DNA from: Loxodes magnus
Taxonomy: Eukaryota; Ciliophora; Karyorelictea; Loxodida; Loxodidae
NCBI GenBank assembly: GCA_946699065.1
Contig: CAMPDV010000115.1
Coordinates: 496,001-560,000, forward strand
Reading direction: 5' to 3'
Length of the DNA stretch: 64,000 nucleotides
Positions 33,117 through 57,190 of the stretch are shown here, in pieces. The stretch's first letter is position 1. Each line of letters opens with the position of its first letter. The notes beneath the pieces were generated by a model, which saw nothing but the letters and a program-made list of their open reading frames with translations, was not told the origin of the DNA and did not search any database. A program made the position numbers and the translations under genes.

Positions 33117-33615
33117 AATAAATAAATAAATTTGATTATAGAGCGCGTAGCACTCTTGAGGTGCGCAGCTCTTTAAAAAATGTTTCATACTAACAAGAAT
33201 GTTTGTTACTGATAAAATTATCGGGTACTGATAAACCTTGTTCAATACTGGTATAATTATTCAGTACTGATAAAAATGTTCAATACTGATATAATTTCAG
33301 AATACTCGTTATCTTTAATACTTGCTGGAGATTCAAGGACATGGCAGGGTTGCGTTTCATTGCATCACCAAAGCAGAGGACGACATGTGTCAATTATGGG
33401 TATTTAAATTCTCCACCTCTGATAAAGCTTGCAAAAATAGTTTACTTTTATTTCCAGAATTAAAAACTAAAATAAGCCAGTGCCGAAGGTCAAACTAGCA
33501 AATATCTCGAAGCCAAGCCAAAGCAGAGGAAGACATAAAGTCGATTATGGGTACATAACTTCCCCGACCTTTGATGAAGCCGTCCCTTGTTGTTCACCTT
33601 CTAATAACTATGGTG
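33117..33615 (-). mobile_element. Short interspersed element, copy 1 (inside otubain domain)
   Basis: About 0.5 kb and nearly identical to 43615-44123. In minus orientation it ends with a hairpin (33141-33172) and a TTTA-repeat tail (AAATAATAAATAAATAAA on +). It holds two copies of a structured module (stems CAGAGG 33374-33379 / CCTCTG 33416-33421, and 33534-33539 / CCTTTG 33568-33573, the latter with one wobble pair). G+C is far higher than the surroundings and there is no credible ORF. It splits the OTU domain between PFLNN and the VEDTLTMGK region. AATAAATAA occurs at both sides (33118 and ~33645) and may be a target duplication blended with the tail. It is SINE-like and has no convincing tRNA promoter boxes. 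Confidence 0.7.
33141..33172 (-). repeat. Shared 3'-terminal hairpin, locus 1
   Basis: On + it reads GAGCGCGTAGCAC-loop-GTGCGCAGCTC. The outer GAGC/GCTC and inner GCAC/GTGC stems are separated by a small internal loop (loop TCTTGAG). It lies just inside the TTTA tail. Compare loci at 43640, 45738 and 56791. Confidence 0.75.
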
Positions 33616-34764
33616 ATTTAATATCTATAATAACTATCCCTTAGAATAAATAATCGAAGATACTTTAACAATGGGAAAGAGAGCTAATTTTATCTAGATA
33701 GGTCCTTTGTAAGTAGTATTGGAATTTAAAGTAAATTGGATAGTCTTAAAGTAAAACAACTTTTAAAACTTAAATTAATTCGAAACATCAGGATAAGTTC
33801 CAATTTTACATTTGCTACTAAGAGGTAATTATGTAGATTTATTATATACGAAAGCTTAAACTCTTATAGATGGTTTCAACATGAATTCTTTAAGTTTTGA
33901 TGGAAACTTATAGCAGTTAAACTAAGTAAATAGCAATATACAGCTATTTTATTGATCATCTAGCAAAATTAATAAGCAATAAAAGACTTCAATAGAGATT
34001 TAGAACCAATTTGTAAAAAGATTTATGTAAAGACTGAGTTATCTATATAGTAAATAGCCCAAGAAGCTTAGCTCAAGAGATAAAGCATATCTACTAAGTC
34101 TAAGGAATAACAAAGTAACTAGCAAGGTAATTAATAAAGGAAATTTTAATGCTTTTAATGCAATTAGAAATTTCACAAGGAAGAGATAGTGAAATTATAA
34201 TGCTAATATCAATTTTGTAAAGGATGTCTTACTTTATAGATTTAGCTCTATACAAACAATTTTAAATAATTAGAAGAAAATATCTGAAGAAAATGCTTAA
34301 TCGAAAATTGTTCTCATCTACTTAGCAGTAAAGAATTGGAAAGCATTTTGATTCAGGAGCAATACTAAATAGTAAAACCATTCATTATCTCAAAAGATTA
34401 AAGTTAATAAGAAAGTACTTCCCATTAAAAAATGCACGGGGAAAGCATTCAAAAATTAAAATCAGAAGATTAAAACAAACTATAGAAATGTGATAAATGC
34501 TAAAATAAAAAAAAACTAAAATATTTTATTAAAAAATTAGGATGTGGACACATCTTCTGCCAAGAGTGTATGAATAAACATATTTATAGCAAAACAGATA
34601 AAAAAACATTTCTATGGGATAAAAACAATAAGTTTATAAAGATTTAATGCTTTTGTTACAAATACGATTTAAAAGAGGAAGAAATCATTAATATAGTTGG
34701 AAAAGTAGAAATTGAAGACAAGCGTGAAGAATTAGAAAAACAAAAAGAATGCTTCATTTTGTGA

Positions 34765-35439
34765 AAGAAAGACAATTAAAGAGAAAATTATTAAAATTTA
34801 TAATAAACTCGCATATTATATAAAAAAGTAATAGAATAATCATAATTCTATATTAAGGTTTAAATAAGAAAATTAATTATTTATACCAAGCATAATTAAA
34901 GAGAATATGCTTACATTGTAATATTTCTATGCTTTCCTTTAAGTTTTACAAGATAATTTATCTTTATTTTAGTTAAACATTAAAAGGGAGTTATAAATGC
35001 TAAATTAAAAGAATATAGAGTAGAAATAAATTAATTAAAGATTAAAATTGATATTTCTAGAAACTAGAGCAGAGTTTAGTTTGCGTGCTTTGTATTTTGG
35101 CAATTGACTTATTTTTAAAAGATTTTAACTAAAATTACTTTGCTTATAATTGTTTAGTTACTTTTTAATATCACAAGTTTTCATTATTTTATCTTAAACT
35201 AAATTATTTTTAGAGTTCTAAACGTAATATTAAGAAAAAAAGTTTATACCCCACTAAAAACCTTATCTATGAGAAAATAAAATCAGATAAATTAAGTATA
35301 AAAGTTTAAGAAATCAATATATAACAAAGATCTTTGCCTTTAAATAAAAATAAGCGTAACTTAGTTATAGGAATATGAAAACAATGTTTCTTAAGTATAA
35401 TAACAAATAATTAATTTACTATATATATAAAAATAAGAA
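34765..35439. other. Intergenic, nothing recognised
   Basis: A+T-rich spacer between RING copy B and the first retroelement ORF1 copy. I see no signals. Confidence 0.5.
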
Positions 35440-36330
35440 GGATTCAAATCGGGATTTTTAGCAGCTCCATAAAAGCAGGAGTTAATGACATTCTAGAGAG
35501 ATTAGACCAGAAAAAGAGCTCCAAAATTTTTCTATCAAATCGAATCTCCCATTTCTGAAGAAAAGCCTAAGAAATTGGCTAAAAGTCTTATTCGCTCGAA
35601 AGTATCGAATCTGGAGCAGCAAATAAACTATGATAGCTGATTAAAGTGGTGCTCTCCAGAACTGGGTCAAAAAAGATAAAGAAAGATAATAAAAATTAAT
35701 GGAAAACTTGAACTTGCAGAGTAAATAGAATCGAGACTCATAACCTAAGAAAGAGACCTTAACGCATTTTGAAATATTTGCCAAGATCCGATTAATTAAT
35801 CATAGCACTAACAATAAAAGCAGAAAGAACTGGTCAATAAAAATAGAAAAAATAGAAGTAATCCAGCAATAACTACAGCGTTAAATAGATCAAAAAATAA
35901 GGAAACGACCCAATGATAATCGAAGTGAAAAAGAACTCAAGATTTAAATCTAAAAGAGAATCGAAAAAATGCAATAATTATAACTCTCGAATGCATATAT
36001 GGAAAAGATACTAGAAATTAATAAATTTTAAATAAGAATACTAAAACTACTGAAGAAGTTAGACAATAGAAAGAAGATACAACAACAATTAAAACTAAAA
36101 AGAGAAAAAAAAAGATTATATTGCAACAATTTCGAAAAAATGTACAAGATAAAAGATACCAATCATTATCTAGGCGAAAGGATATCTCAAGGATATTATT
36201 CATAACAAGAAGAAAAGTTCTAGAGACATTAAAACTTTTATATTTAGCCTCTAGAGCAATCTAAAGACTAGTGGGAAAAAGGCTGAAATACCTACAAGAG
36301 TATCAAACATTTAATTTTGTATTATTTATG
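35440..36330 (+). mobile_element. Retroelement ORF1-type gene, copy a (decayed)
   Basis: Opens with GFKSGFLAAPQKQEL, aligned with MSGFKPGFFAAPKNQEL of the copy at 42048. It continues as a charged coiled coil (LAKSLIRSKVSNLEQQ, then LELAEQIESRLITQERDLNAF) in frames separated by TGAs. The nucleotide match to 42048-42960 persists to a common end (TTTATATTTAGCCTCTAGAG at ~36237, and ~42858 in the other copy), so both are copies of one element. It resembles the first ORF of a non-LTR element (RNA-binding, coiled coil). The CCHC knuckle seen in minus-strand relatives was not found here. The initiator ATG is lost. Confidence 0.6.
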
Positions 36331-36482
36331 TATAATTGAATTTGTAAAATAATTTTAAGCAAGCTAAAATGCTTTGAGCTTTAAACATTTAATTTGGGAT
36401 GATTAATATGATTTTAGATTGCTATGATTTTTTATTATGTAAACATTCTTTATGTTAACTATGCTTACTTTATTACTTTAAA

Positions 36483-37265
36483 TTACTCTAACAAATATAA
36501 TAAATGCAAAAAGGAGAAACATTTAATAAATTTAAGAATCTTTTCTAAAAATTGATAATAATAATGATTGATTAACGTGGAGTCACCTTTATTTGGTTTT
36601 CCACGAATTAAAAGTTTATTGTTAAGTAATAGAAACTTCAAATTTATCTGGATCAAGTCTATCATAAATCTTCAAGATTTTTAATTTATTTTTAATAATG
36701 GTTTCCTACAGGTCAATTCCATTCATTTCTTATTGAACTCATTGACCGCTCGCTAAATTTACGGAGCTTCTTTGTTTAGTTGAAGTATTTTTTCCTATAA
36801 AATTTTCCTTTTTGAGTACAATAGGTTCTAAAAATATTTCCCCATTATTTTTCTATTATTCTTTTTTCTTTAAGTCTAAATTGGAAGCAATTCCGTACTT
36901 TATGTCCAGGCCTCTTGCATATCATAATTTTCTGATAGGGAATACAAGTTGTTGGAGTTTGCTACTCCACATCCATTGGATCATTCATCGATATTTTTAT
37001 TAGAGGAATATGCTTTCAGTTAACTATAAATTGGTTTAATTTTGTTTCTAGTTCTACTATTCTGATATTTCATGACTATTTATTTTCAATTTTTGTTCTT
37101 ATTAATTAAACATCAGGTATTCGATTTTCCTTTTAAGTTCTTGTACTGTTCTTAGGAGTTTAAAATTTTCTTATTACATAGTTTGGAGTTCTTTAAGTAT
37201 TTTTTACTGATCATAACTTGATTGAGAAGCCTTTTAAGAAGAGACTTTTTCAAGAAATTTTCCAT
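36483..37265 (-). mobile_element. Retroelement ORF1-type gene with CCHC knuckle, copy c (decayed)
   Basis: The minus-strand ATG at 37265 starts MENFLKKS, parallel to MENYKQKIS of the copy at 48112. A coiled coil leads to NDPMDVEQQ at ~36985-36960 and a zinc-knuckle relic (CKRPGHKVRNC, first Cys deleted). The C-terminal region aligns with 47.4-47.7 kb (IIEKQWGNIFRTYC versus IVENQWKNIFRIYC) but then breaks into several frames, ending around PNKGDST. This is a gag-like nucleic-acid-binding protein of a non-LTR element, clearly inactive. Confidence 0.6.
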
Positions 37266-37299
37266 TTTTTCTATCAATAATAAAAGGTAAAGGTAAAAT

Positions 37300-38410
37300 T
37301 AGGTTTATAGTTTTAGAAGAGGGACTTGCAAATAATAAATCTTCAATATGTTCACTCTAAAAATAAAGAATTGCTTAGGATTTTGTTATTCTGCCTTCCT
37401 TGCTTTTAAACCCTAGCTTATTAAGTATAATCCAGTTTCTTAAAAAAACTATTTTTAAGTTAGTTTTAACTCGAATTGTAGAACTTATTCCTATAGAATA
37501 GTTCAGTTTTTGTTAGTTAGATTTAAAATAAAACGTCCAAATGGCTTATTTAATTTTTTTATAATTTTCTGAATTTTTTCATCATCTTTTGTAATAATGT
37601 TGCTTTTAACATATGTAACAATTAAGTTTTCTTCTTAAATATTATTACATTTTGTTTTTTTCTACGTCCATTGGTACACATCCTTATTATCCATAGGTTC
37701 TTTAAATAATTTCCTATTATAACATCTGCTTTTCTTTCAATTATTTTATTTAATATCATAATATCGAAAATTAAAATTTGATTAAATTATTAATTATTAA
37801 TTATTCTCTTTTAGCCTTTGAACCATTTAAGCTTAGATCTTATTTATAGCATCATCTATAGATGAAAATTAAAGGTTTCGTTTTTCGTCTATTTTATCTA
37901 GTATTTATTATAATTTTTAATTTTTATTATTTTAATTCTTATAAAATTTTTGTTATTCTTTGACGCACTGATTGTGCAAAAATACTCTTATAATTAATGC
38001 TATTCTTATTTTTAGGTTTTTGTTCGGTCTAAAAGTATTGTTTTTCTTATTTTAAAGATAATAATTAAGAGAGGTCTGCTGTTTGTTAGATGCATTTTTT
38101 TAATATAATAATAATATATATAAGTTTTTATATTTTTAGCACCGGAACATAATTGCAAAGTTATGCTGAATGTAATTTACAAACTATGTTTTAATAAAGA
38201 TTTTTTTTTCAACTTCAATCAAACTTTTTGCTTTACTTCGTCTTGCATAGTTATTTGAACATGCTCTTCTTAAATTTATTTTCCATTTGAGGAATTTTTC
38301 TAACTTTCATTTTCCAACTTGAACATTTCTAATATTTTCTTAAATAATTCCTCATGAAAGATTTTGACTAATTTATCTACTTTAGAAAGTTAAGTTCTTG
38401 AGAAATTTTA
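37300..38410 (-). mobile_element. ORF1-like remnant, copy c2
   Basis: Coiled-coil coding stretch at ~38400-38230 (VDKLVKIFHEELFKKILEM) followed by a PMDVE motif at ~37673-37660 and Lys/Asn-rich fragments down to ~37330. The order and motif match the ORF1 copies on either side. Frames are badly broken and the limits are approximate. Confidence 0.4.
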
Positions 38411-38654
38411 ATTAATATAAATCTAATCGCATAAAATGGGTTTCTTCTAATCTTTTCCCAAAAGCAACTAATTATTAAAAAAATCCTAAAATAACAACTA
38501 TTGTAAAGATAATTTAAAAAATCTTTGAATTCATTAAAATATTAGTCAAAAATACAAATTATACTTAATTAGATATAAATGTGACGTTAACTGAGTTCAT
38601 GTAAGAAATTAAAAAAGTAACTCCTTAGTTTATAAATGGAAATAATATTCTTAG

Positions 38655-39330
38655 TAAAATTTTTATTAAATTTCATGCATTTTACTTAAGGAAGCACACT
38701 TTAGTTATTTAATACTTGAGCTATTATTTTTTTACAGTAGAAATAAGTGTATTCCTTAGGAAACATTCTTAGAAAAAACTAATTTTGAATTTATAAGTAA
38801 TATGTTTATTAAACTCTTGAAAAGTACGAGAGTCTTACAAAATTTTTAGACTTTTTACAATACCAGCACTGAGTTCTTTTTTTCTTCCTTATTCATATGT
38901 TTGTTGTAATTCTGGCTCAACGTCCATAGGATTATTATAGGATAAACTTTTAAAGAAAAAACTTTCTGTGATTTCAGTAAACTGACTTATATTTTTGTTT
39001 CAAATTGGATATTAATTTCTTTCTTTTGGTTGTGTTTACTTAATTCCACTTTAAAGTTTTATTTTTCTTATTTATTAAAGTTTTACTAATTATTAAGCTT
39101 TAAATTTGCTCCCTAAGTATTATTACTTTGCTGGTTATTGATTGACTTCTTGAATGCTTAATAGTTTTTAGAGAATCATTTATTAAGATTATTATAGTTA
39201 TGATTTTTCTTTTACCTTCGAAGCTTTTTAAGAGAAATTTTCAATTTTATTTAAGCATTAAAATTAATAGCATCAGCAATAATTTCTCTAGCTAGTATTA
39301 AAATCCTTAGAAAGTTAATAGTAATTGATT
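38655..39330 (-). mobile_element. ORF1-like remnant, copy f
   Basis: A minus-strand frame holding NNPMDVEPELQQTYEQGRK (motif at ~38930-38919) stays open for ~90 codons to a TGA near 38676. It is preceded at ~39240-39030 by Gln/Lys-rich coiled-coil-like coding. The PMDVE block is the anchor. The zinc knuckle is not recognisable. Confidence 0.4.
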
Positions 39331-42047
39331 TTGCTTATTACTCAGAAATATTTTGTTTACATATATTTTTATATTGAAAATATAGAGTTGTTTGCTTATA
39401 GAAGTCTTAAAGGAATTTTTAAATTCTATAAAATTAAATATAGGACATCTCAAAATAAAATCCACAAGTAGATATTTATTAAAATATTAAATCAAAAGTA
39501 GGCTTTTATGCGTAAAGAACATTCTATTAGTTGAATAGCAAAAATATTTAGTTAAATAAAACTTTTATAATGAAAATTAAAAAAATTAAAAATTAAAAGC
39601 AACTAAATCTAGTTATCTACTATAAAGCTGCAAAGGAAATTGTTTACTAATTTACAAAATAAAATTTAGTATAAAACTAAATAAAATTCAATAAAAAGTT
39701 AAAATTATTTAATTTCTGCTTATAACTAAAAAGGAGTTATAATTAAATTAAGTTAGACTTGATTGTTATTAAATTATTATTAGCTTTAATATAAAGGAAT
39801 TTTATTTTATTTTATTAAGGTTTTTAAAGTTAGAAATATTAAAGATGAATATATAATTAAAGAAATAATAGTATTTCTCTAAATGAGTAATAAAATGTTG
39901 AAACAAATTTTTGACTAAAATTTGAAAATTGTTAATTATTTAAGGTAATAATAGTAAAAAAATAAATTAAGTTTGATTTTTTAGAAGTTCTTCATTTACC
40001 TTTCCAAAACTTTCAGAATTTTCAACTATTTTAAAAAAGATTGAATTATCTTTGATATTTGCTTCAATTATTTTTTATTGTCATTTCAGGTATACTTTTA
40101 TTCTATAAATTTATCTTATTATTTTCAGTTTAACTTCTCTTGCTACTTTCTAAAATTTTCAGTTTTTATATTTACTATTTCTAATTTCTTTCTTCCTTTT
40201 TCCGTATTATTATTTTAAAATCAGAGTCTTAAAATTTTTTGTTAGAGATATTTCTACAAAATTCAAAAGTAACATCATTCTCTCTTAGCTTTATATTTTC
40301 TATTTGCAATTTAATCTTAAATATGATTATTTTTTAAGTTTTTGGTATTTCTGTAAATTTACTTTATCTTTTATGTTGTATTATTTTTATCTACGATGAT
40401 AAATCATTTAGCCTAATTTTATTGTATAGTTTCAAAAAGAAATTAGGTATTTCTCATTTATAATCTGTTTCTTTATATTTATTAAAGTTTTCAATTAATT
40501 TCTCATTGATATTCTCAAGAATCTTTACCTCTTCTTTTAGTTAAGTATTCATTTAATTAATTATTCTTAATTTATTTATTAGTTAAGAAAATTATTAGAC
40601 TCTTGATGTAATAATGATTACCTATTTACAACTTTAGTTATGTAAAATATTTTAAGCAGTCTAAGTAATCATAAATATAAAAAAGAAAACTAATTATAAT
40701 TTGATAAAAGATTAAATGTTTGCTAATTTATACTTAATTAAGTTTAATGAAGCATTTAGAATTATAACCATTTTGTAAGGAAGATAAATATCAAAGAAAT
40801 ATTTATTTACAGTTAATTAGGATTGCTTATACCTGTAACTATCCTTATGGACTCTGCTATATTTTTCTATAATTAAAATAATGTGAAATGTATATCTTAT
40901 AATAGAATAATGCTTATAATAGATTAAAGCTAAGTAAAACATACTAATGCTTCTTTTAAAATTTATTTCCATTGTACTTTGATTTATCTGCTTTTCTTCT
41001 AATATCATTAAAACTCTTAAATTTCTAAATGAAAGTATTAAGAAAAGAACAAAAAATTATTAAATTTTTAAAAGTATCTTGAGAAAGTCTGGAATTTAAA
41101 GAACTATTAATGAAATTATATAAAGGAAGATAAAATAAAACCCATCGTTTATAAATAGAATTATATCATTTTTAAAGACAGAGAGATTAAATAAAAGTTA
41201 TACATCCGATAAAAAGATTCAAAAAAGAGGTAACAAATGAAATTAAAATTTTGAATAAAAAAGAAATAAAAAATAAATTTGTCTAAATAATTAAGAATTG
41301 TCGCAATATTTTAAATAATTCCACTTAATTAAATATTGACTATCTAATTTGCTATCATTTTAAAGAATCAATGCTTATAATATTATTATTATAAGAATTA
41401 GACAAACTTTATTTCCTTATTATTTAAATTTTTACTATTCAGTCAAAGATTCTATAAATAAAAAGTTTTAAAAATTATATTATGTGTTGCTTAAAAGGCT
41501 TTTATGCTTAACTAGTTAATTAATTGATTAAAGGGCAAATTATATGAAAAAACTTTTATCAATTATAAAAATAAAAAATATTAGATAAAAGCTTTATACC
41601 TTAAATTAGATAGATTTTAGCTTTTAAAATTCCTTTTTGATATATTAATATACTATTTACTAAATTATAAAAGCTTTAATATATAAAAGTATTATATATC
41701 TTCTAATATTCTTTCATTTATAATATGATTCTGATATTAATATGTATTAAAGTATTTTATATCTAAGGTATAAATAGTTAAGATAAAAGTTGTATATAAT
41801 TAGATGCTAATAATTAATCATTACTTATTTAAGAAATTACATAGATTAGTTAACTTTAGTATACTTAGAATATATCTATTATCTTAAATTAAGTATATTT
41901 TTATTTATTAGAGTAACTTTATTACTTTATTATTTTCTTTATATACGAAAGCTAAATCTTTCAACTCTTTTTAGGATTTACAGATATACTATTGCTTGAG
42001 TAATATAAAGTTACTTATTAAACTTACTTAGTATTACGAAAAAAAAG
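39331..42047. other. A+T-rich region with a possible coiled-coil remnant (40000-40552, -)
   Basis: Mostly filler. On the minus strand an ATG at 40552 opens a short coiled-coil frame (LKEEVKILENINEKLIENF) similar in style to the ORF1 N-terminal helix, followed by broken Lys/Asn-rich fragments to ~40000. From 40.6 to 42.04 kb I see nothing. Confidence 0.35.
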
Positions 42048-42329
42048 ATGTCAGGATTCAAACCAGGATTCTTCGCGGCTCCAAAAAATTAGGAATTAAC
42101 GACATCCTAGAAAGACTAGGACCAGGAAAAGGATAACAAAAAGGTCGCCCATCAGGATGAGTCTCCCACGTTTGAATAAAAACCTAGGAAATAGGCTAAA
42201 AATATTATGCGCTCGGAAATCTTGAATCTTACCATATAATAGCAAATAAGATATGATTAGCTGATTAAAGTGGTGCTAAATCTCTAGGAAGAGGTAAAAA
42301 AATTAAAGAAAGATAATAAATATTAATGA
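42048..42329 (+). CDS. Retroelement ORF1-type N-terminal ORF, copy b (93 aa open)
   Basis: ATG TCA GGA TTC opens 93 codons without TGA: KPGFF near the N-terminus, a polar Gln/Lys/Asp stretch, a KPRKQ basic patch, then a coiled coil (LIKVVLNLQEEVKKLKK) ending at TGA 42327-42329. Nucleotide similarity to copy a continues for another 630 bp past this stop (to ~42960) with further TGAs, so the ORF is the intact head of a longer decayed ORF1. The KPGFF and coiled-coil layout recurs in the minus-strand element starting at 47019. Whether the short product is made is unknown. Confidence 0.5.
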
Positions 42330-42960
42330 AAAATTTGAACTTGCAGAGGAAATAGAATCGAGACTCATAACCAAAGAAAGAGACTTTAACGCATTTTGAA
42401 ATATTTCACAAGATCTTAGCAATTAATCATAGCACTAACAATAAAAGGAGAAAGAATTTATCAATAAAATAGAAAAAATAGAAGAAAACCAGAACAAATT
42501 GCAGCTTTAAATGGAATTTAAAGAATAAAGAAATAATACAATGATAATTGAAAGTGAAAATAACTCAAGATTTCAACTTAAGCGACAAGCAAGAAAATAC
42601 TATTATTGTAACTCTCAAAAGCATCTTTGGAAAAGATGCTAAAAATTTCTCATTTTATTTAAGAATATTGAAACTAGTAGAAGTAGTTGGAGACAAAGGG
42701 GAAACTATAATAACTAAAGCTATCAAGAGAAAGATAAAAATTATATTGTAACAAATTTGAGAATTTACAAGAAAAAAGATATCTAGCATCTAGTGGAAGA
42801 GAATTCAAGCACAACATGCATGGCAAGGATAAGATTTGAAGAGATTTCCAGACTTTTATATTTAGCCTCTAGAGAAATCTAGATGTTGGCGGGAATGAGG
42901 TTGAAATACCTCCAAGAACGCCAAGCACTTAATTTCGTGATTGTATTAAACATACTTAGT
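42330..42960 (+). pseudogene. Decayed 3' part of ORF1 copy b
   Basis: Aligns at the nucleotide level with 35700-36330 (shared AGAAAGAGACNTTAACGCATTTTGAAATATT-type blocks) and contains multiple TGAs and shifts. A standard-code frame at 42548-42751 inside it is incidental or a partial copy of the original frame. Confidence 0.5.
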
Positions 42961-43614: not shown

Positions 43615-44123
43615 GAATAAATAAATAAATTTGATTATAGAACGCGTAGCACTCTCATTGGTGCGCAGCTCTTTAAAAAAAATGTTTCATACTGACAAGA
43701 ATGTTTGTTACTGATAAAATTATCAGATACTGATAAATCTTGTTCAATACTGGTATAATTATTCAGTACTGATAAAAATGTTCAATACTGATATAATTTA
43801 AGAATACTCGTAATCTTTAATACTTGTTGGAGGTCCAAGGACATGGCAGGATTGTGTCTCATTGCATCACCAAAGCAGAGGACGACATGTGTCAATTATG
43901 GGTACTTAAATTCTCCACCTCTGATGAAGCTCGCAATATTATTTCTTTTTCATTCCAGTATTAAAAATAAACGAATCCAAGTCAAGCCAACGTCGAAGGT
44001 CTAAGAATCTTATGTCTCGAGGCAAAACCAAAGCAGAGGAAGTCATAAGTCGATTATGGGTACTTAACTTCCCCAACCTCTGATGAAGATGACCTTGTTG
44101 TTCACCTTCGAACAACTATGGCG
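43615..44123 (-). mobile_element. Short interspersed element, copy 2
   Basis: Near-full-length match to 33117-33615. In minus orientation it begins with a perfect stem (GTTGTTC/GAACAAC on +, 44098-44117), has two structured modules (CAGAGG/CCTCTG stems at 44034-44039 / 44077-44082 and 43876-43881 / 43918-43923), an intervening run of ACTGATAAA/ATACTG-like repeats (43690-43800), the terminal hairpin at 43640-43672 and a TTTA tail. It is better preserved than copy 1 (stem pairs intact), so it may be younger. No ORF. Confidence 0.7.
43640..43672 (-). repeat. Shared 3'-terminal hairpin, locus 2
   Basis: GAACGCGTAGCAC / GTGCGCAGCTC with loop TCTCATTG. Inner stem intact, with one outer-stem mismatch (GAAC for GAGC). 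Confidence 0.75.
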
Positions 44124-44339
44124 GTTTTAAAAATTATATAATAGATAATTAGATCTAAAATTTGAATAAAATTATAAAATTCAAGGTAGAGTTAAATACT
44201 AAATCAATAAATTATCATATTCTCTTGTATCTTTTATTTTTTATTTTTGAAATGTGCTCTTCTTCTTTTATAACTTTAAGCTTTTAATTATCTTTTTTTA
44301 TTTTGTTGTATATATATAAACTCAAGTTATACCTATTAT

Positions 44340-45430: not shown

Positions 45431-45716
45431 AGATTTGTTGGTTTTGTAAAATTTTAAATTTCTAACTTATTTGATAATAATTAAAAATATAAAACCTTTA
45501 TGTATATTGAATGGAAAAATTAATTTATTTTATAAATTAAAAGGAAAAATTTGCTTAAAATCTAAAAATATTAGTTGAAAAGTGTATTAAGCTAATTTAA
45601 AAATTAAATTTATAAAACTAAGCATTTATTTGTTTAGTATACAGGAAAAAGATGAATTAAAAATGTTCAACCTATTTTCATTTTGATTTATTAAAGAAAT
45701 TAAAAAAAATATATTT

Positions 45717-47050
45717 TAATAAATAAATTGGATCATAGAGCGCGTAGCACTCTCGTTGGTGCGCAGCTCTTTAAATTAATTATATTTAATTTCGAAATTT
45801 TTTTTATGGGTCTCTCTATCTTTGTTTTCTCTTCCTGCAGTTCGTCCCTATAATTTTTCCTTCCAAAGCATAGGATGCAATATGCGATTACGGGTACATT
45901 TCCCCGACCTATGATGAAGAAAGTTTCCTCCTGGCATTCAGAGCTCTCCAGCTTGTCACATCTTTCTTCTCTTGTTATAGTTTCTCTTCCTCTGATTTAT
46001 CCTCCGTCCGCGCTCATTTTTTTGTTGTTGCCTTGCTGGGCCTCCAAGCAGCATCCGAAGGAAAGGGTTTTCCACCCTATTTAAAAAATGTTATATAATA
46101 TTCTGTAAAATCTAAGAATCAAACTTTATAACAAAAATTTTTATTTATAATAATAATATATAAAATTGTTTAGAGGTCTTCTTGGATTTTCACCAATTTC
46201 CCTTTTCCAACCAGAATAGTCTGGTGAATAAAAAGAAAAGTTTATTGTTTCATTTCTATTTTTTCTTGTCTTAAATCTTGTATTTCTCTTCTCTCTCCAT
46301 CTTTCATCCATCTACCTTGCTACTATTCTTTTGGCGCTTGTCTCTTTAATTTGATAAATAGATCCTCTCTCAGTAATATGAATTCTTTCTGTCAGTCCCT
46401 TAACTCTCTAATTAAATTCATTCTTGAATATATAGAAATTTCTACACTATTTGTATTAGTGTCCTTTTTTCTTGCAGGAATAGCACTTTCTACTCTTCAT
46501 TGTATTCTAATAAATTTTTGGTCTTTTTTCAATTTCCATTTGACAACCTTGCTAATTGTTTTAAAATTATTCTTAAATTTGATTTTGCCCCAATATCGCA
46601 ATTGGTTCTGGCTATTATGCACGTTCCGTTTATTTAATTAATTATGATTATGAGTCTAATTTCATTTACTATATTTACTAAGAGCAGTAAATTTGAATAT
46701 TTCAATAGGCGTCCATTTCTCTTTCGTATTTAATTAATCTTTCATCTACGTTTTCACGATTCTCTATCAATATTTGATTTTACTCCTTAAGCTTTTTAAC
46801 TTCATTAAGCAAAATTTTTACTAATTCTGTAAGTTATTCAATGCTATTTCAATCCTCACTAATATTAATTTCTGAAAGATCTTAGTCAACTGGAGTTTCT
46901 TATTACTTTGGAGGTGTGGACATTCTCTTCCTAGGTTTTGATTGTTTATACTTTTTCTCTTCAGATTCTTATTAATTTTTACCTTTCTAATTTTATTTGG
47001 TAAAAAAGCCGGGCTTCATTCTTTTTATATTCAATTTTTATTATATTATT
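45717..47050 (-). mobile_element. ORF1-CCHC retroelement with shared 3' hairpin (element e)
   Basis: The minus-strand ATG at 47019 opens MKPGFFTKQNQKG, a KPRKR basic patch and a coiled coil (LTELVKILLNEVKKLKE) with two TGAs. Downstream, in another frame, come MEIEKR and a perfect CCHC zinc knuckle KCYSCKKKGHQYKQC (~46500-46455), then a basic helical tail (FNQRVKGLTERI) related to the tail of the copy at 47.4-48.1 kb. The last 360 bp are G+C-richer, carry one CATAGG/CCTATG module (45869-45913), and end in the terminal hairpin (45738-45770) plus a TTTA tail. This ties the hairpin to the 3' end of an ORF1-bearing element. There is no reverse transcriptase inside. The + ORFs at 45875 and 46351 are antisense shadows. 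Confidence 0.65.
45738..45770 (-). repeat. Shared 3'-terminal hairpin, locus 3
   Basis: GAGCGCGTAGCAC / GTGCGCAGCTC with loop TCTCGTTG, both stems fully paired. It lies between the G+C-rich 3' region of element e and its TTTA-type tail. Confidence 0.75.
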
Positions 47051-47394
47051 TAAAATTATATTTAGTAATTTTATCTACAATTTTAAGAAACTTAGTATTT
47101 ATAATAAAATTCTAGATTTGAATGAGAGGTGGTAATTAATTTTTTTTAATTAACTATAATTATTCTAATTTTGTTAATACCTTTTTCAATATATTTTGTA
47201 GTTTTTAGTTTAGCATTAAAATAAATAATAATCTAAAATTTATTAATAATCTAAATTAAATTATTTATTTATAAAAATCTTAATATTAAGAAACTTATTT
47301 ATTTTCAAAACAAATTATTTAATTTTAATAGATTTACAATAAAAATATTAAACCTAAAAAGGAAAAAATATATTAAAAAAATTATATTAATTAA

Positions 47395-48112
47395 TTAATT
47401 AATTGATTTACGTGATTTCACCTTTATTTGGTTAATCACAATCAAAAGTTTAAAATTAAATAAAAGAGACTTCATATTTACTTGGATCTTGTTTATCATA
47501 CATTCTAAGGATTTTTAATCTATTTTTTCTGAGAGTTTCTGATAGATCAATTCCCATTCGTTTCTTATTAAATTCGTTAATTGCATGCTATATATTTGGA
47601 GCTTCTTTATTTAACTGGAATTTTTTTTTGTATAGTTTATCGTCTTGATTGCAATAGATCCTGAAAATATTTTTCCATTAGTTTTCTACTATTTTCTTTC
47701 ATTTTCATTAGAATTGGAAGCAGCTTCTAACTTTGTGCTCTGGTCGTTTGCAGTATCAACATCTCATTATTTTCCAATAGGGAAAATAATTTGTTGTAGG
47801 CTGCTGCTCTACATCCATCGGATCATTCATCTACATTTTTTGCAGTAATATGCTTTCAGTTAACTCTGCAAATTGATTAAATTTTGTTTCTAATTATTCT
47901 ATCCTGATAATTTCTAGCTATTTATTTTCAATTTTTTATTCTTATGAATTAATCATCAGGTGTTCAATTTTTCTTTCGAGTTCTTGTACAGTTATTAAAA
48001 GTTTAAAATTCTCTAATTGCATGGCTTGGAGTTCTTAAAGTATTTTTTATTAATCGTAGATTGACTAAGATGATTCCTTTTGAGATGAGATTTTTTGCTT
48101 GTAATTTTCCAT
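47395..48112 (-). mobile_element. Retroelement ORF1-type gene with CCHC knuckle, copy d
   Basis: The ATG at 48112 opens ~120 codons of coiled coil (LQELQAMQLENFKLLITVQE) to NDPMDVEQQ (~47825) and a zinc knuckle whose spacing CxxCx4Hx4C is exact, but a TGA sits at the residue after the first Cys (C-stop-YCKRPEHKVRSC). Two more TGAs follow. After that the frame is open for ~95 codons (KIVENQWKNIFRIYC, then FNKKRMGIDLSETLRKNRLK) to PNKGEIT. Knuckles usually have an aromatic residue here, so a TGG-to-TGA change is the simple explanation. This is the best-preserved C-terminus of the family. No hairpin or tail follows, so the 3' end has been lost. Confidence 0.65.
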
Positions 48113-49004
48113 TTTATATATATTAATATTTCCCTTAATAATAATTATTAGACTGAATAAAAAAGCCTAAAAATGAAAGTTTCAGATAAAAATTTAATTT
48201 AAATTTATTTTGAATTATAATTTATTTTATAAGTAATATTTGCAAATTAAAAATGAACTATTAAGAAATAAGAAATACTCACTTTTAAAAATAAATTTAA
48301 TTTTATAAAATTTAGTATTTTCTTCAAAAATTATTGCTTTAATTATTTAAATTTCTTAAAGTATTTTATACAATTTTAAAAGAAACTTTTTGTTTTAAAA
48401 TTTATAAAAATATGAAAAAGTAAAATAGTAGATTATTTTAATTTAATTAATTAGAATTTTAATATAATTTAGCTTAGATATTTAAGTCTACAAAGCATAA
48501 GCATAAGCATAAAAATTAATTTATATTTTATTATTTCTATTTTAAATAAATTAAATTTTATTATGTTACTATTCTTAAAATCAAATATATCATTATTTTT
48601 ATAATTAAATAAGTTTAAATTTTTAAATAATCAAATTTTAACTACATACTTTTAAAAAATAAGAGCTTGTTATATTTTAAACTAAATAAATATTAAAATA
48701 ATGGACTAAAAGTATTTAATTTATAATATTATTTTACTTAAATAGCTAGAAAATTTAAAAGAAAGCACTTCAAATACTTTTAAATTAAGATTAAAATTTT
48801 AATTATAATTACTAATACAGTTAATCTTTTTTCTATAATAAAGAAAGAATAAAATTAAAAAATTAATTAAAACAGCAGATAGCTTAAGGAAAAAATTTTT
48901 TCCATCTCCTAAAGGTAGGAGATAAAGCAATAGAAATCAATTATCAACTGCACCACGTCTTCTATTTATATTTCTCCTTAAAAACTCAACTACAGCAACC
49001 TTAA
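48113..49004. other. A+T-rich spacer upstream of a long retroelement
   Basis: No gene. A short hairpin-like sequence (TTTTTTCCATCTCCTAAAGGTAGGAGAT) near 48895-48922 could be a terminator-like or element-end structure. Confidence 0.4.
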
Positions 49005-52000
49005 ATGTCAGAAAAGAGTCAAAAATACATCAATAATTAAAACTAAGGCAGATAATTCAACTAAGTATTAGAATAAAATAAGCTTAATAAAATATTTGAT
49101 TTTGACTTTGGAGAGGATTGTGAATATTTCAAAATGAGAGATGATGATCTACAACCTCTGAGTTTTATGCAAGATGATTTGAATGAGACGGACTAAAATA
49201 TTTTCAATAGATTTTTTTGAAGAATGGGTGACAAAAAATCTGAGAAATTTTTTATTTTGAGTTAAACTAAAAAGTTTAAGACGGAAGAGATAATTTATTA
49301 AAAGAAAATTTTCGTATTAGAGAAAGATTGTGAAAAAAATACTTAATTGCTCTTTATAATTTTTACTTATTTAAGAACATTCAAATTTTACTTGATTACA
49401 ATATATGAACTTATAATAAGTGCAAAATTAAGTTATTATAAAAAGGTATTTACTTATATAAGTACTAATAATAAGTTATTATATGTATTTAAAAAATGGA
49501 GGTTAAACTAACGAAATTCTAGGACAAGTTAAATAAAACCATAACGAACATTTAAATGGAGAAGAAATAGTAATTTCAGCATGGAAAAACCTCTAAAATA
49601 GTTTATCATAAAAAGACTCTATTTAAAGACCGAATGGAAAACTAAAAATGAGGAAAATAATAAAAAGAAAATAAATAGAAGAGAAAAGATAAAACCTATG
49701 TTATTCTTTAACACTAGAACAAGGATTTAATCTCTACCATGTTGATAGAATAAATGGAAATTAAAGAGTCAAGAAAACGATTATGACAAAAATACGGACA
49801 AGAAATTCCTAGATTTAAAATTTAATCAAATAGTATTGTATTCATTATATTTAGCAGCATTGAAAAATAAATAAGTTTTACAAGCAAAAGAGTAGGAGAG
49901 TTCTGGGTTCAATAATACCAATTAAATAGAAAAATTTACAATAATATTTTGACATACGCAATTATCCCATATATTTCAACTTAAACGAATTCTCGAAAGT
50001 GAACGAAGTTAAAGAATCCTTAAGGAAATATTAGAGGAGACATACTCCACACGTTCCCGAACACAATCATACTAACAGGAAGTGCGTAGTATATATTGAC
50101 TTAAAAATCTTGAGGAAGCAAGTATAATGCCAGAAATAATAGATTTGAATGGAATATTAATGAAGCTAAATCACCCTATAAATTTTAAATACAACCAGTG
50201 CGAATAAAATGGACGTACTGATAAACACTACAAAAGAGTAGATACAGCAAAAATGAAAAAACAACACCTAAATGAACCAGGAAGATAACAAGTATAAACT
50301 AAAATAGTATTAAATCAACCTGGATTAGTAATATTGCAAGAAGAAAAAGAGATAGTAAATGAGAAGGACAAGATGATAATAGAAGAAAGAGAAGAAAGAA
50401 TATAAAAGAAGAAAAACAAGGGAAGATTTAAAAAAATAAAATAAAATATTTTTTATAATGAAAATATGAATAAACGCTATTTTTCGTATAAATAGGAATG
50501 GTCATTTCGTAAGGAGATAGAATAAAGAGATTTTTTAAGAATTAAAAAAATAAGAAATATTAGTGGAGGATAAAAATAAAGCAAGAAATAATTTAAGAAG
50601 GATATTACAATAAGAGATGAAATAAATTCTAAAATTAAATGGGGAATAACCTAACAAGAAGGATGGTAAACTGTATTATTTAAGAAAGAAGGACAATTAA
50701 AAATAATTGAATTAAATAGAGGAAATAAAGGAAAGGAGAGAATTGTAAGCAAGGAAAAAGCGACAAAATAGAATCAGATGAAGGTAATAAGCACTAGCTA
50801 AGATGTACAAATAAAAAGGCCAAAAAATGCAAGATAACAAGAAAATAATATGGAATAAGAGGAAGATATGAAGATTATCGAGGAATAAGTGAAAGAAGAA
50901 GAAAAAAAGAATATATGAAAGACAATAAAGATTTAGAGAATGAAGAGGATAAGAAAGAAAATAAAATAAAGTGGAATAGAACAGGATACAAAAGAATTAT
51001 AAGAATGATTATTAAAGATAGTTATAGCAGACGTAAAGGGAATTAGAAGTGCAAAATATTAATTAGCTAACTGTATGAACCAAAAAAGAATTCATATTAT
51101 GGCTTCATAGGAGATCTAAATTTAAAACTAAAATGATATGTGCAATATAGCAGGATTTAAAAACTTAATTGTGGGATAAAAAAAGGAAAAAGACTAGGTT
51201 TTTATACTAAAAATGAACTATGGTATGAGAAAAGAGAAATAGAAAATGGAATAAATTAAATGAAAATATTTGAGGTACTCGAACGATAATCATAGAAGTA
51301 ATAAAAAAGTTGTCTGTAATAAAATGTATATTCACCAGTTGCAAATGATAGTAATCAATATGAACCATTCTGCAATTTATTAAATGAATTGAAATTATAA
51401 TTGGTAGAAAGATGACTATGTGTAATAATAGATTGTAATGCATAAATTGAAAGTTGCCCTCCAAGATAAACAAACTCAGCAGGAAAGAGAACGGTTAGTT
51501 TATGGAGCAGGATGACCTAGTATGTATTGACCCTATGATTTTAGGAACGTATGTGTATTAAAGCAATAAAAACAAAATAGATTATTTTATAATAGAAGAA
51601 AAAATGAACTTAAAGTAGTGAATAGTGATTTTTAATTTTCGCATATAATATAAGATCATAGACCGGGAATTACGCAAATAAAAGTTGGAAAAAAAATCAG
51701 GAAGAATGAGAAAATAACAAAGATAAACTACGCACTTCTAAAGAGATAGGAATTCTATAAAAATTTGAAAAAAAATATATAAGAAAGCATAAAGAAAGAA
51801 GAAATGAATAACTTGAATGGATAATAAATTTATAAATGATGAAAAGAAAGATGGAAGAAGGAGCACAAAAGATATGTGGATAATCAAAATAGTAGGAGCA
51901 AATTAAAATACTCAGAATTAACGAAAATGAGAAGGAAAATTTGTCGAAAATTCAGTAATTAAATTAAAGCTAATACAAGGGAAGATAAGGAAATTAGAGG

Positions 52001-52435
52001 AAGAATTTTACTACGAAATATAATGAGAAATAAGCAAGAAAGGAATATATCCAAGTAACAAGCAAAGATTAAAAGAATTAATTTAATTCGTTTAAGGATA
52101 ACGTAAATAAAGGAAATATAACAGAAATGTGGAAGAAATTAAAAAATTTATTCAATAAGAAAAATAATAAAAAACATCCTATTAGAAGAGGATATATAAA
52201 AATTAAAACTCATGGGAAAAACTATATGTGAAGATGGAGATAACACTTTACCTAAGAAATTTCTAAATAAAAGTAAAATAGAGCTATACGAGTATAAATA
52301 CAAGAAAGCCTCTATAAAATAACAAAATAAAAAGCAATTGGGCCTGATGAAATTCAAACGGGAATAATTTTGGTTGGAGGTTAAAAGTTTCAATACTTTG
52401 AGTAATGGGACATAATTGTACTTCTCATAGTTATA
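49005..52435 (+). mobile_element. Non-LTR retroelement: endonuclease + start of reverse transcriptase, truncated
   Basis: An ATG at 49005 opens a 71-codon frame (acidic, FDFDFGEDCEYF) to TGA 49218-49220, and the same frame stays open beyond it to ~49742. From ~49930 to 50150 an RRM-like stretch is visible (IYFNLNEFSKVNEVKESL, CVVYIDLK). 50118-50918 is a continuous basic linker. An exonuclease-endonuclease-phosphatase domain spans ~51020-51690: IADVKGIRSAKYQLANCM, ASQEI, NKIDYFII and the terminal catalytic DHRP (51654-51666). Reverse transcriptase begins with KAIGPDEIQTG at 52331-52363 (LINE consensus KAxGPDGI) and stops at ~52435. Numerous TGAs and frameshifts make it inactive. The polymerase palm is missing, and the end abuts an inverted element fragment. 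Confidence 0.7.
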
Positions 52436-52444
52436 TTTCATGTG

Positions 52445-53040
52445 AATTATGTTAAGTATAAGTGTTTATGTAAGTTTAAAATCAACTTCTAGTTAATTCT
52501 TCCTGCTTCTGTTCTTTTGTTTCTTCAATATAAGTTCTAAATTTTATTCTCGTATTTTCCTCTCTCTCTTCTTTTTTTCAATTTTCTTCTTATTTTATTG
52601 CTCAACCATTACTTAAGTTTCTTTCTTAAATAATTTTTTTTCTCCCATAAATTTATCTTTTTGTTTCAGCTATTAAATTTTTTAATTTTCTATCCTTTTT
52701 TAAGCAATTTTTATGAAAATTTTAATATATTTGTCAATCTTAGGGATTTTACTTTTTACAAAGTTTGAATTAATATAATTTTTGTTGTACAGATTTAGTT
52801 TTTTATAATATTTGTCATAAAATATTTTTTTATTATATAATTCCTAAAAAACATCTTTATAGAAAGTGCATTCAATATATGATCAAGTTCATCATGAGCT
52901 AAACCACATGCACAATCAATTCCATTTTATATTCTTATGTGACGCAAACTAAGTTCTTATTAGAAATTTTAGGTGAATATCTCAGCTTTGAAATAGAAAT
53001 TATATCTTATATTCGATGTCTGTTAAACTTATTATAAGTA
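52445..53040 (-). mobile_element. 5'-truncated non-LTR element: C-terminal CxC..H zinc motif
   Basis: Minus-strand frame reads LSLRHIRIQNGIDCACGLAH, then DELDHIL (~52935-52870). This is the CxCGxxxxxxxxH pattern found at the C-terminus of LINE ORF2 proteins after reverse transcriptase. It is followed by a Lys/Ile-rich helix and a basic Glu/Lys tail to ~52490. Upstream (53.04 kb on) the sequence becomes filler, the expected outcome of 5' truncation during target-primed integration. It meets the truncated + element tail to tail. Confidence 0.5.
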
Positions 53041-54742
53041 ATTTCAGAAAATATACTTTAAATTTCATACAATCTTAAAAACTTTAGATTAAACTATAAG
53101 AATCTCTATATTTAATAATGGCATCTAGATGTTTAATTAAATAGCAATTAAAATTATTTATATATGAAGGAAAGATAGCTAAGCCCTTTTTAGAAATAGA
53201 GATTTTTATATATAAGAAATTAAAAGCAAAATAGAGACGATGTAATGAATAAATAAATATTTTGATTCAAATCTTAATTTTTTAACTCTAATCCAAAAAA
53301 ATATTTTAATTTATAAAATAAAATTATTTCAATTATTGTGAAGCTTCTCTAGATTCTTTGATCAACTCAAAAGATTTTAATTATTTATATAAATTTAAAT
53401 TAATTTTATTTTTTGTTCCTTGAACATTTATAGACTTTATTATAAATTCAATTTAATATCATTTTCACTTAAAATTAATACCGAATCTTAATTAATTTTA
53501 TCTAAAAATACATTTTTAGATTTATAAAATAGATAAATTGTTTTAAAATAGTTTTTCTTTAAAATAAGTTTAATTTATGTTGCTAGCTATAAAATTAAAT
53601 ATAGCATAGTTAAATTAAAAATTTTATTATTTTACATTTTCCCAAAATTTTCAAATAAATTTATATAATAACAAATTATATAAATTTAGAGTTATTTAAA
53701 TCTGCTTAATTTAAGGCTGGATATCTTTAAAAACCTTATTTTATATTTGTTAATAATTTTTTAAATATGAAATAGATAATAAAATTAAAATTTTATCAAA
53801 TTAAATATTCTAACTAAGTAGTTATAAAATATCTAAAATATTTATTGAGATAATTGAAATCTATAATAATCTTAATTATATCTTTAAATGAATATTTTCT
53901 ATATTTTATACTTTTTTAAATTATTTTATATATTTATATTTCGATTATTATTTCTTGGCTTATTTATTAATTAAAATTATAAATTTGTTTTCATTTTATT
54001 TACCAATCTTTTATATAAAAACTAAATTATTAAAATAAATAATATATTAATTTCTGATTTAAAGTTTAAAAAAAAATTTTGTATCCATTTATCTTCTATA
54101 AGTTATAAATCTTTTTAATCTATAATACTTATTTTAGTATGTGCCTTTAAAATGTCTTCTAAATATTTATTTATTTATTTAATTTTTATATCTAAAAATT
54201 TAATCAATTATAAATTGTATGATTCTTATAAAACAGTAAAAATTCCAAGCTGTTTTTTAATTTTATTTGTATATAGCTTTAAATCCATATTTTAAAATAA
54301 ATTTTATGGTTTTTAAATTAGTTTTTTTTAAGATTTTTTAAACCTAAATATATCAAAATTATTATAAATAATTTTATAATATAATTATCTCATATAATAT
54401 ATATTATTAAATCATATATCTTTATAATAATTTTAAATTACTAAATTACGATTATTTAGATTCTTTTAAATTACATTTTTTAGATTTAATTTTTTAAAAT
54501 ATTTCATTTAAAACCTTCTAAAGCTTTCTCTAAAAATAATTTTAATATTAATTTTAAGATTTAAAAATAGTCTATTTTAAAAATTAGTTTATAGAGTATT
54601 CGATAATATAAGTAAAAATATAGTTACATTTAAACTTTAATGTAATATCCTATTTTTATCATAAATAAAGAATCTATTGTTATGATTGAATGAAGTTTTT
54701 AAGAAACTTATTTAAATTTGTTTATTTATTATAATTACTTAA
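53041..54742. other. A+T-rich stretch, nothing recognised
   Basis: Extremely A+T-rich with scattered AATAAATAA-like tracts. No coding or structural signal that I can support. The last ~100 bp are presumably the 5' flank of the small gene that follows. Confidence 0.5.
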
Positions 54743-55162
54743 ATGAAACAGGAGAAGAAAACTTATATAGTTGAAGGCTTACCAACGCTGCTTGGAAAGT
54801 TTCCTTTTCCTTAGTTTTAAGCTAATTGGAATTAAAGTAGGGAATTACCTCCTCTCAAAAGAAATTGTTCAGCAAATGAAAGCCAAAATTTTGATCTAGG
54901 AAATATGTTTCAAGAAGTTTATAGTTATCAAACTTTTTTCTAATCTGCAAGTTAATCAGAAGCAAAAATTCCAACTCAAATTGAAGAAGAGGAATATAAT
55001 CCTTAAGAATACCTTTACCAATTATTTGAAGGAACTAGAAAATAAAAAATTGCTTAATGTGGACACAGCGATAGGCTAGTTTTCAAAAGGAATATGTGCT
55101 ATAATTGCTATAAATTCGCAAGGAATTCGATTTTTAAAAGAAAATAGAAACTATTAAAATGA
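54743..55162 (+). CDS. Small protein with CxH..MCxxCY zinc-binding motif, intact
   Basis: ATG AAA CAG GAG to TGA gives 139 residues with no disruption, unlike its neighbours. A Pro/Phe-rich N-terminus (LGKFPFPQFQ, LPPLKRN) and an acidic middle (IEEEEYN) precede a C-terminal motif C-G-H-S-D-R-x5-R-N-M-C-Y-N-C-Y at residues ~105-125, which could bind one zinc through Cys/His/Cys/Cys, followed by a basic tail (FKRKQKLLK). The N-terminal block KRNxPPL and the finger recur in the gene at the right window edge, so both belong to one family. I recall similar CxH..AKGMCxxCY fingers in ciliate and plant proteins but cannot name a function. An intact frame amid decay suggests recent arrival or continuing selection, perhaps as a germline-expressed gene. 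Confidence 0.7.
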
Positions 55163-56759
55163 AACATTTAGTATGATACTTTTATCTTAAAAATATAGAT
55201 GCTTTTGTTTTAAATGTTGTCAAGATACTTTTTATTTATCATAAAGTCTAAATATAAATAAATGATAACGATTATTTTTTATTTAAGCAAATTATCAAAT
55301 ATAAACTTATTGAGTAGGCAAAATTACCATATATTTAAATTTAGGATTTTGCCTTTATTATTATTGCTAGATGGCTAATTAGAATTTTTTTTCTTTAATC
55401 CAAAAGAGATTATAAATAGTTAATGTTATTCCATATTCCTAATAGTTGCACCAATTTCACCATTTAGATATGCTTGAGCTAAGCCTATCTATGATAAATT
55501 TTAGTGAAAAATCTTAATTCATGCTGAAATCTTAAATAATCCTAAAACAACATGATAGATTTTTGTATTGTAAGGTAGAAGAAACTACAATTAATTTTTT
55601 TGCATTTTAGATTAGTAGAAAATTATTAATTATAAGTCTTTTTATTATTTATAAATAAATGATATTTACAAAGTAGATGTATAAAGCGAACATTATGCTT
55701 AAATAAACATATTTAATAATAATTATTTGTTTATGCTAAAAATTAATTAAATATATTTAGTTTATTTTATATTTTTGCTTTTTAATTATAATTTAATCTA
55801 TTTTTTATTTTTGGTTTTTATATTTTAATTTAAATCTTATTAATTTTGTAGAAATATCATTTAACTTATAAGAACTCATATGGAATTCTTAATATAGATT
55901 TATATCCTAATTCATTTTATTTAAAAGTTTAAATAATAATTCTATTAATAAATTCCTATTTAAAATCTCTTAAATCATTATAATTAAATAAAAGAGCTTT
56001 TCTGAGATTTTATAAGTCAATATGCCTTTTATAAATTTAAACTATTCTTACTAGTATACTTAGTGATCATTCTAAAATCAAGGTTTCGTAATTTCTAATT
56101 TAAATTAACTTTATCTTCTTAAAAAAGTAAAGGATAAAAATATACATAAACTTATGAAGTAAATAATTTGGATTATTTCAACTTAGAATCAATTTTTTTT
56201 ATGATTAATGCTATTTTGAGAAATCTCACATTTTAATTCTTAAAACTATTTTAATTTTATTTATTTTTTTAAAACTTTTTAATTTTAAAAGGCTTTATTA
56301 CTTCTTTTATAGGATTCTTCCCTATTTTTTAATGTTAAAAAAGATTTAATAAAATTTCCAGAGTATCAATTCTTCAAATAAAATTTAATAGCATAACATA
56401 GGTTCACAAAATGGAATTTTCGAAGAAGATTAAAAAAATCAATAGCCAATTTAGATTTGCTTAAATCAATTAATCACATAGTTTTGAAAAGATAAAACAC
56501 AGATAAAATAAAAATCTTCAGAGTATTTAGCATTATATTTTCTTTTCATTCAGAAAATATAAATATACAAAATAATAAACTAAAATTTAATAGAAAGATA
56601 GAAATAAAAAAAGATAAGAAAAATCTTACTTATTGATAAATTGAACTTATTTAAAATTTTTATAATTATTTTAATATAAAACAAATTAAAAAATAGTTTT
56701 AGTCTATTGTAAAGATTAAACTAGTAAATACATATCTAAAGAAGCTGAAAGTAGAAAAT
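55163..56759. other. A+T-rich spacer
   Basis: No gene seen. It ends near the A/T-rich tail of the next hairpin element. Confidence 0.5.
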
Positions 56760-56790
56760 AATTATAATTAAATAAAGAAATATGATTATA

Positions 56791-56823
56791 GAACCCGTAG
56801 CGTCTCGTTATCGCTTAGCTCTT
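56791..56823 (-). repeat. Shared 3'-terminal hairpin, locus 4 (compensatory variant)
   Basis: GAACCCGTAGCGTCTCGTTATCGCTTAGCTC on +. The inner stem is AGCG/CGCT instead of GCAC/GTGC, around a conserved TCTCGTT loop. Pairing is kept by changes on both sides. Confidence 0.7.
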
Positions 56824-57186
56824 TCAATATTAGTCTTTAATATTAAGAAAAAATATTCCCATATTTCTTGTTAAAATTCTAGTAGTCCAACGAGACACAT
56901 CAACTTCTCCAAAGAGAATATCTATTTATTAAAGATATTCTCGAATCTTGAATCAAATGCTCTAGTCTTCTTGAATAAGATCCAGATAAGAATTAATTGT
57001 TAAGTCATTAGTAGGCCCGTCATTAAAGCATTCATAATTCTAGTGAGAACCCTCAAGAGAGTTAGGATTGTCTCTTCCGAGCTTGTCCATGTATCTCGTG
57101 AAAGCGTCTAGTGCAAGATTATTCGCAATACAGAATGAACTGCACCAGATTGCATATTAATTCTCCTGACCGCGGTCGATATCCAT
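56824..57186 (-). pseudogene. 120-codon ORF of hairpin element, one internal TGA
   Basis: ATG GAT ATC GAC opens a frame of balanced composition, low in Gln: ALDAFTRYMDKLGRDN, then NDGPTNDLTINSYLDLIQED. A TGA at codon 78 (56955-56953) is followed by KIREYLQQIDILFGEVD and SRWTTRILTRNMG, ending at TGA 56826-56824. Codon use and composition are unlike the A+T filler around it, so it is real or recent coding sequence. I do not recognise a domain. All three minus frames are unusually open, but this one has the ATG and the best residue mix. It could be the 3' end of a longer protein captured by the element. Confidence 0.5.
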
Positions 57187-57190
57187 TTTA

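Follow-up and report, generated by a model that had tools for sequence, protein, structure and literature searches.

Three families of SINE-like elements share a 3' hairpin and TTTA tail with a LINE in the ciliate Loxodes magnus

A 64,000-nt stretch of the genome of the karyorelict ciliate Loxodes magnus (GenBank assembly GCA_946699065.1, contig CAMPDV010000115.1, positions 496,001 to 560,000 of the forward strand; here called the window) carries four elements that all end in the same 3' module, a hairpin followed by a TTTA-type tail. The same 3' end is found on a long interspersed nuclear element (LINE) of this genome, referred to as LINE-I. All four elements are non-coding and resemble short interspersed nuclear elements (SINEs), and they belong to three families: A (present twice, ~0.5 kb), C, and D. 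The RNAs of A, C, and D are very probably retroposed non-coding RNAs that end in the LINE-I 3' block, in a LINE/SINE partnership of the stringent type. The elements and their class I 3' modules, the latter with covariance model scores, are as follows.

33,117 to 33,622, minus strand: SINE-like family A, copy 1 (5' end at ~33,622, 3' tail at 33,117), with two central-domain copies, the class I hairpin, and (TTTA)n
43,616 to 44,131, minus strand: SINE-like family A, copy 2 (5' end at ~44,131), 87% identical to copy 1 over 515 columns
45,714 to 46,087, minus strand: SINE-like family C, ~0.38 kb (5' end at ~46,087), with one central domain, the class I hairpin, and tail
56,767 to 57,202, minus strand: SINE-like family D, ~0.43 kb (5' end at ~57,202), with a class I hairpin variant and tail
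33,117 to 33,176, minus strand: class I 3' module (hairpin and tail) of A copy 1, 86.0 bits
43,616 to 43,676, minus strand: class I 3' module of A copy 2, 91.6 bits
45,714 to 45,774, minus strand: class I 3' module of C, 88.7 bits
56,767 to 56,826, minus strand: class I 3' module of D (hairpin variant), 73.9 bits

The class I module is ~60 nt long and consists of the hairpin, ATAATC, and a TTTA-type tail. A preliminary description of this DNA had placed the hairpin and tail on the minus strand at 33141, 43640, 45738, and 56791, and both were found directly at all four loci. In its common form, read in the sense direction, the module comprises AAAGAGC, TGC, GCACC, the loop, GTGC, TAC, GCGCTCT, ATAATC, and AAATTTATTTATT. 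The change of the inner stem from GCAC/GTGC to AGCG/CGCT at the fourth locus, also reported there, is present, but only loci 3 and 4 have the exact TCTCGTT loop said to be kept; it reads TCTTGA at locus 1 and TCTCATT at locus 2. The class I covariance model was built from the four window copies and two genome copies; as it contains the window loci, their scores are descriptive and do not constitute a blind test. The best match to the model elsewhere in the window reached 18.2 bits (E = 0.58). An IUPAC pattern typed from the copies, with up to three mismatches allowed, recovered two of the four loci (2 and 3) and gave no match in 100 shuffles. Folded as single sequences, the four copies have energies of -9.1 to -12.5 kcal/mol, which is only moderately better than shuffled sequences (z = -2.07, -1.32, -2.03, and -1.65 for loci 1 to 4, with 8, 26, 7, and 14 of 200 shuffles each, respectively, folding as well as the native sequence).

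To identify LINEs, the genome was searched with the Pfam RVT_1 profile, and 150 of 3,403 candidates were scored. In the best match (L063), a class I hairpin of 86.7 bits lies behind the frame of the second open reading frame (ORF2) and is followed by TTTA repeats. Pieces of 201 bases were then fetched from 10 other RVT_1 rows using the RVT_1 coordinates alone, placed by the distance between reverse transcriptase and hairpin in L063 with the 3' sequence unseen. A class I hairpin was present in all 10 (74.9 to 86.7 bits), followed in each case by TTTA repeats of differing length and then by unrelated flank. In nine of these ends the stem begins 12 nt behind the presumed TGA stop, and in L074 the distance is 9 nt (five distances measured, five judged by eye). 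Two more LINE ends were met incidentally, L053 (97% identity to the LINE over 398 nt) and L040 (81% over 1,358 nt). The earlier suggestion that LINEs might end in the hairpin and tail was thus borne out by 10 of 10 blind ends, together with L063, L053, and L040. The reverse transcriptase frames contain TGA, TAG, and TAA, as expected under the karyorelict code. The Tetrahymena REP element, considered as a source on the basis of AT content and TAA/TAG reading, was dropped because the assembly measures 705.7 Mb and these frames hold all three codons.

Comparison with the last ~1.4 kb of LINE-I gave one match each for the queries A (72 nt at 93% identity, E = 4e-25), B (74 nt at 92%), C (57 nt at 95%), and D (61 nt at 80%, E = 4e-11), in every case at the 3' end, with no further match below E = 0.05. 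LINE-I and the SINE-like elements therefore have a common 3' end: the short elements have 57 to 74 nt of homology with a LINE 3' end from their own genome, and the same short TTTA repeats close the SINE-like copies and the LINE ends.

Across the genome, family A was found at 40 scored places with 90 to 100% identity (out of 3,084 first-look candidates), and families C and D were each found at 41 places from 40 scored candidates (out of 2,402 and 4,525 first-look candidates, respectively). The copies are dispersed, flanks differ between most of those compared, and copies of each family mostly share one 5' starting point. A, C, and D are thus short, non-coding, dispersed, and retroposed, as SINEs are. 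It could be argued that the elements arose from one LINE by truncation or internal deletion and lack independent heads, as 5'-truncated LINE copies such as L053 do exist and the comparison above covered the 3' part of LINE-I, such that a body could still derive from the 5' part. However, in the ~1.36 kb of LINE-I upstream of the block none of A, B, C, and D has a match below the threshold given, and the common 5' starting point (query positions 55 to 72 in 34 of 41 places for D) also speaks against this origin, which we regard as improbable. Still further from likely, and in our judgment close to negligible, is that the shared block represents a repeat or a gene terminator which segmental duplication has spread; local cases of such duplication occur (for example, on contigs C115 and C379), but the differing flanks in the sample and a clean empty-site pair, described below, are at odds with it.

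The four bodies had initially been sorted into three kinds: a non-coding element of ~0.5 kb found twice, an ORF1-CCHC element, and a 120-codon ORF. The first of these corresponds to family A, while the two frames proved not to be features of their families. Locus 3 as an ORF1-CCHC element was rejected, as relatives of C are alike only over their last 366 to 554 nt. In the 12 fetched C contexts (two of which, L040 and L041, are 99.5% identical throughout) and the window, the match beside the tail has this length and other matches are not collinear with it; therefore, the CCHC frame is an upstream neighbor and not part of C. Locus 4 as a gene was rejected for family D, since the reading frame is not conserved in diverged copies: 9 of 11 compared copies, some of them duplicates of each other, have 3 to 7 frame-shifting indels, and substitutions fall roughly evenly over the codon positions. 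L052 and L053, which are segmental duplicates of the window D locus on the same contig, are without frame-shifting indels, and L053 differs from the window ORF by 8, 6, and 17 changes at codon positions 1, 2, and 3; this third-position excess is the one sign against the rejection. A central domain of ~60 nt is common to A (twice) and C (once), at window positions 33350-33575, 43840-44090, and 45860-45930. Its CAGAGG/CCTCTG in A is replaced by CATAGG/CCTATG in C, and it has no Rfam match. Apart from the 3' module, D is unlike A and C.

One insertion could be examined against its empty site.

57,205 to 57,250, plus strand: empty site; its paralog L053, on the same contig, is occupied by a 5'-truncated class I LINE, and L052 is a second empty site

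On the two sides of the LINE insertion, L053 matches the window at 93% over 1,974 nt and 89% over 1,090 nt. The insert is a LINE 3' piece of ~450 nt including the tail, and it is absent from both the window and L052. The empty site reads AATTATATATTAGTAAAA, while the filled site has AATTAT before the LINE and ends in TTTATTTATTAGTAAAA, with TATT common to tail and target. The site was resolved for this one LINE copy and not for a SINE-like copy. Among 28 copies of A, C, and D, taken as independent by their flanks, 12 have the motif TATTATATA, which was picked after looking at these same copies, within the 45 nt upstream of the 5' end. It is absent from all 28 of the 3' flanks and occurs in 3 of 809 control windows. 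The motif may reflect a target preference or be part of the 5' ends of the elements themselves. In L053 the truncated LINE lies in AATTATATATTAG, and this one case leans toward target preference.

Another RVT_1 family, LINE-II, represented by L064, ends in a different hairpin with the loop AAATAAA, followed by TTAA/TTTA repeats. This class II hairpin was present in all six further L064-like rows, although flanks shared between rows, judged by eye, reduce the seven to about three independent insertions. The class I model gave at most 27.2 bits on class II ends (E = 5.4e-5 in a 1,086-base search), compared with 74.9 to 86.7 bits for LINE-I, and the positions behind this signal lie in the outer stem and the tail. 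Between LINE-I copies and parts of the L064 ORF2 end, identity is 24 to 37%, and from these sequences the two LINEs look related. The window holds two class II hairpins, each closing an element with a solo ORF1 of CCHC type; these two elements (window 36576-37265 and 47411-48112) are related to each other.

36,576 to 36,605, minus strand: class II hairpin (loop AAATAAA) closing a solo-ORF1 CCHC-type element, with the frame from ~37,265
47,411 to 47,440, minus strand: class II hairpin closing a second solo-ORF1 CCHC-type element, followed by TTAA-type repeats, with the frame from ~48,112

A mechanism can be proposed in which the LINE-I reverse transcriptase would bind the hairpin of the RNA 3' end, as established LINE biology (UnaL2 and others) suggests by analogy. 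Target-primed reverse transcription would start at the TTTA tail, paired with TATT/TTTA-like target DNA, and the enzyme would copy both its own RNA and the SINE-like RNAs, with insertion leaving no recognizable target-site duplication (TSD). The related LINE-II has a hairpin of similar layout and different sequence in common with the solo-ORF1 elements. It is also conceivable, although we hold this with considerable doubt, that LINE-I (loop AACGA, non-coding partners) and LINE-II (loop AAATAAA, ORF1-only partners) represent two 3'-end codes of one hairpin layout, read by related reverse transcriptases and combined with directed, TSD-less insertion beside TATTATATA-type DNA; such insertion could provide new copies with a TATA-like promoter.

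A number of observations weigh against the LINE/SINE partnership. The 10 LINE rows were chosen by eye down one search list. No head of the tRNA, 5S, or 7SL type was found, as the window has no Rfam match at the gathering score and no tRNA, and relaxed Rfam thresholds gave nothing credible for the three bodies, a search of single copies that could miss diverged heads; as no RNA polymerase III-type head was found, the elements are termed only SINE-like. Their bodies contain T runs, which are expected to stop RNA polymerase III. No TSD, a usual though not universal product of target-primed insertion, is seen at the one resolved insertion (L053), and in the 28 copies the TSD score was 9.18 for own flanks, a value reached in 807 of 2,000 permutations, and 9.10 for mismatched flanks. 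Covariation in the class I hairpin, analyzed in an alignment fitted to the structure (53 matches, 47 of them distinct), was not significant: two pairs were changed on both sides across the 47 distinct rows, which was equaled by 67 of 500 shuffles, and the covariation score was equaled by 98 of 500.

The preliminary description had expected excess covariation and named its lack as evidence to the contrary; in form this is the outcome, but it is hard to weigh because the class I hairpin hardly varies. The hairpin is kept mainly as sequence, and the result is compatible both with selection on the stem and with its absence. Since covariation was not significant, recognition of the hairpin structure is something we infer; the earlier idea of one reverse transcriptase using a common 3' end stands insofar as the LINE ends carry hairpin and tail, while the contact between enzyme and RNA is putative. 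The same result would suit a relaxed mode of recognition, in which the enzyme needs TTTA repeats only and the hairpin is merely inherited from the LINE end, its stem-loop being without a role. The tails, which are variable TTTA runs, and the short match between tail and target at the resolved insertion point the same way. Nevertheless, we consider relaxed recognition unlikely, as the same block of 57 to 74 nt has been kept by three families with different bodies, and LINE-II copies and solo-ORF1 elements retain a hairpin of similar layout. Pairing in the class I stem is kept in 92.4% of 510 cells, which also argues against it, though near-invariant sequence alone could yield that value.

The assembly searched has 705,730,643 bases in 7,843 contigs. 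It fits the published L. magnus macronuclear (MAC) assembly of 706 Mbp (PMC11441545) and not a germline-limited genome, so the germline setting assumed at first is unlikely. Within the 11 flanking stretches of 9,901 bases, nine class I hairpins were met unsought at E < 1e-6, in addition to the 11 baits. A bodies precede three of them, D bodies another three, and a LINE one, and two are unassigned. Together with the four in the window, this amounts to 13 hairpins in ~173 kb. If this density were typical, the genome would hold tens of thousands of class I hairpins, a rough figure because each stretch was selected for the C copy in it; copy number estimates rest on first-look candidates and local density. 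In L055 (1872-1991), a family A element lies tail to tail against a family D tail. On contigs C5131 and C20, RVT_1 matches recur in tandem every ~2.5 kb, which suggests that a LINE fragment is arrayed there. Elsewhere in the window, positions 19500-22070 form a tandem array of ~159- to 160-bp units (~16 copies) within long open frames, with related copies at 31450-31706, and 22286-23428, partly repeated at 32000-34700, has duplicated frames that match RING fingers weakly (Pfam zf-C3HC4, E = 2.3e-4).

The available text of the published L. magnus genome account reports ~2,700 RVT_1 copies, at least two families of complete LINEs, no classical internal eliminated sequences, and a large unclassified repeat fraction, and makes no mention of SINEs or a 3' hairpin (PMC11441545). 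The LINEs described here may belong to those published families, and the LINE/SINE-like elements may explain part of that unclassified fraction. A literature search on Loxodes SINEs or retrotransposons returned nothing relevant, and among the paper titles listed none points to a ciliate LINE/SINE pair of this kind, although this does not prove absence. If the partnership is real, a ciliate without extensive DNA elimination carries a heavily parasitized LINE, and two related LINEs with different hairpins offer a naturally occurring test of RNA choice by reverse transcriptases.

Animals and plants offer well-known examples of non-coding elements with a borrowed LINE 3' end, and the ciliate precedents found are from Paramecium and Tetrahymena. 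For Paramecium, the accessible portion of one report describes putative SINEs and seven zinc-finger solo ORF1s thought to be moved in trans, three with a terminal TAAA repeat (PMC5405496). Loxodes resembles Paramecium in having ciliate non-autonomous elements that include solo ORF1s; that portion mentions no 3' hairpin common with a LINE. Tt.REP of Tetrahymena thermophila is a non-long terminal repeat element with an ORF1 zinc finger, an ORF2, and a conserved 54-bp 3' tail, and no SINE partner is described in the available part of its account (PMC6564038). It is likened here, by description and not by tail sequence, as a ciliate non-LTR element with a conserved short 3' tail. In the plant L1 clade, LINEs and SINEs have a putative shared 3' hairpin with conserved loop and flank and compensatory stem changes, according to the excerpted text of PMC3747384; Loxodes likewise has a putative hairpin common to LINE and SINE-like 3' ends, but its covariation, unlike these stem changes, is not significant. 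According to the same excerpts, eel SINEs have the 3' tail of the LINE UnaL2, a 3' stem-loop, and short terminal repeats, TGTAA in UnaL2 (PMC3747384). Loxodes differs from this pair in organism and sequence, in its TTTA repeats, and in having several families on one tail, and hairpin recognition is experimentally supported for UnaL2 and inferred here. What the two systems have in common is a 3' tail shared by LINE and SINE, a stem-loop, and a short-repeat ending.

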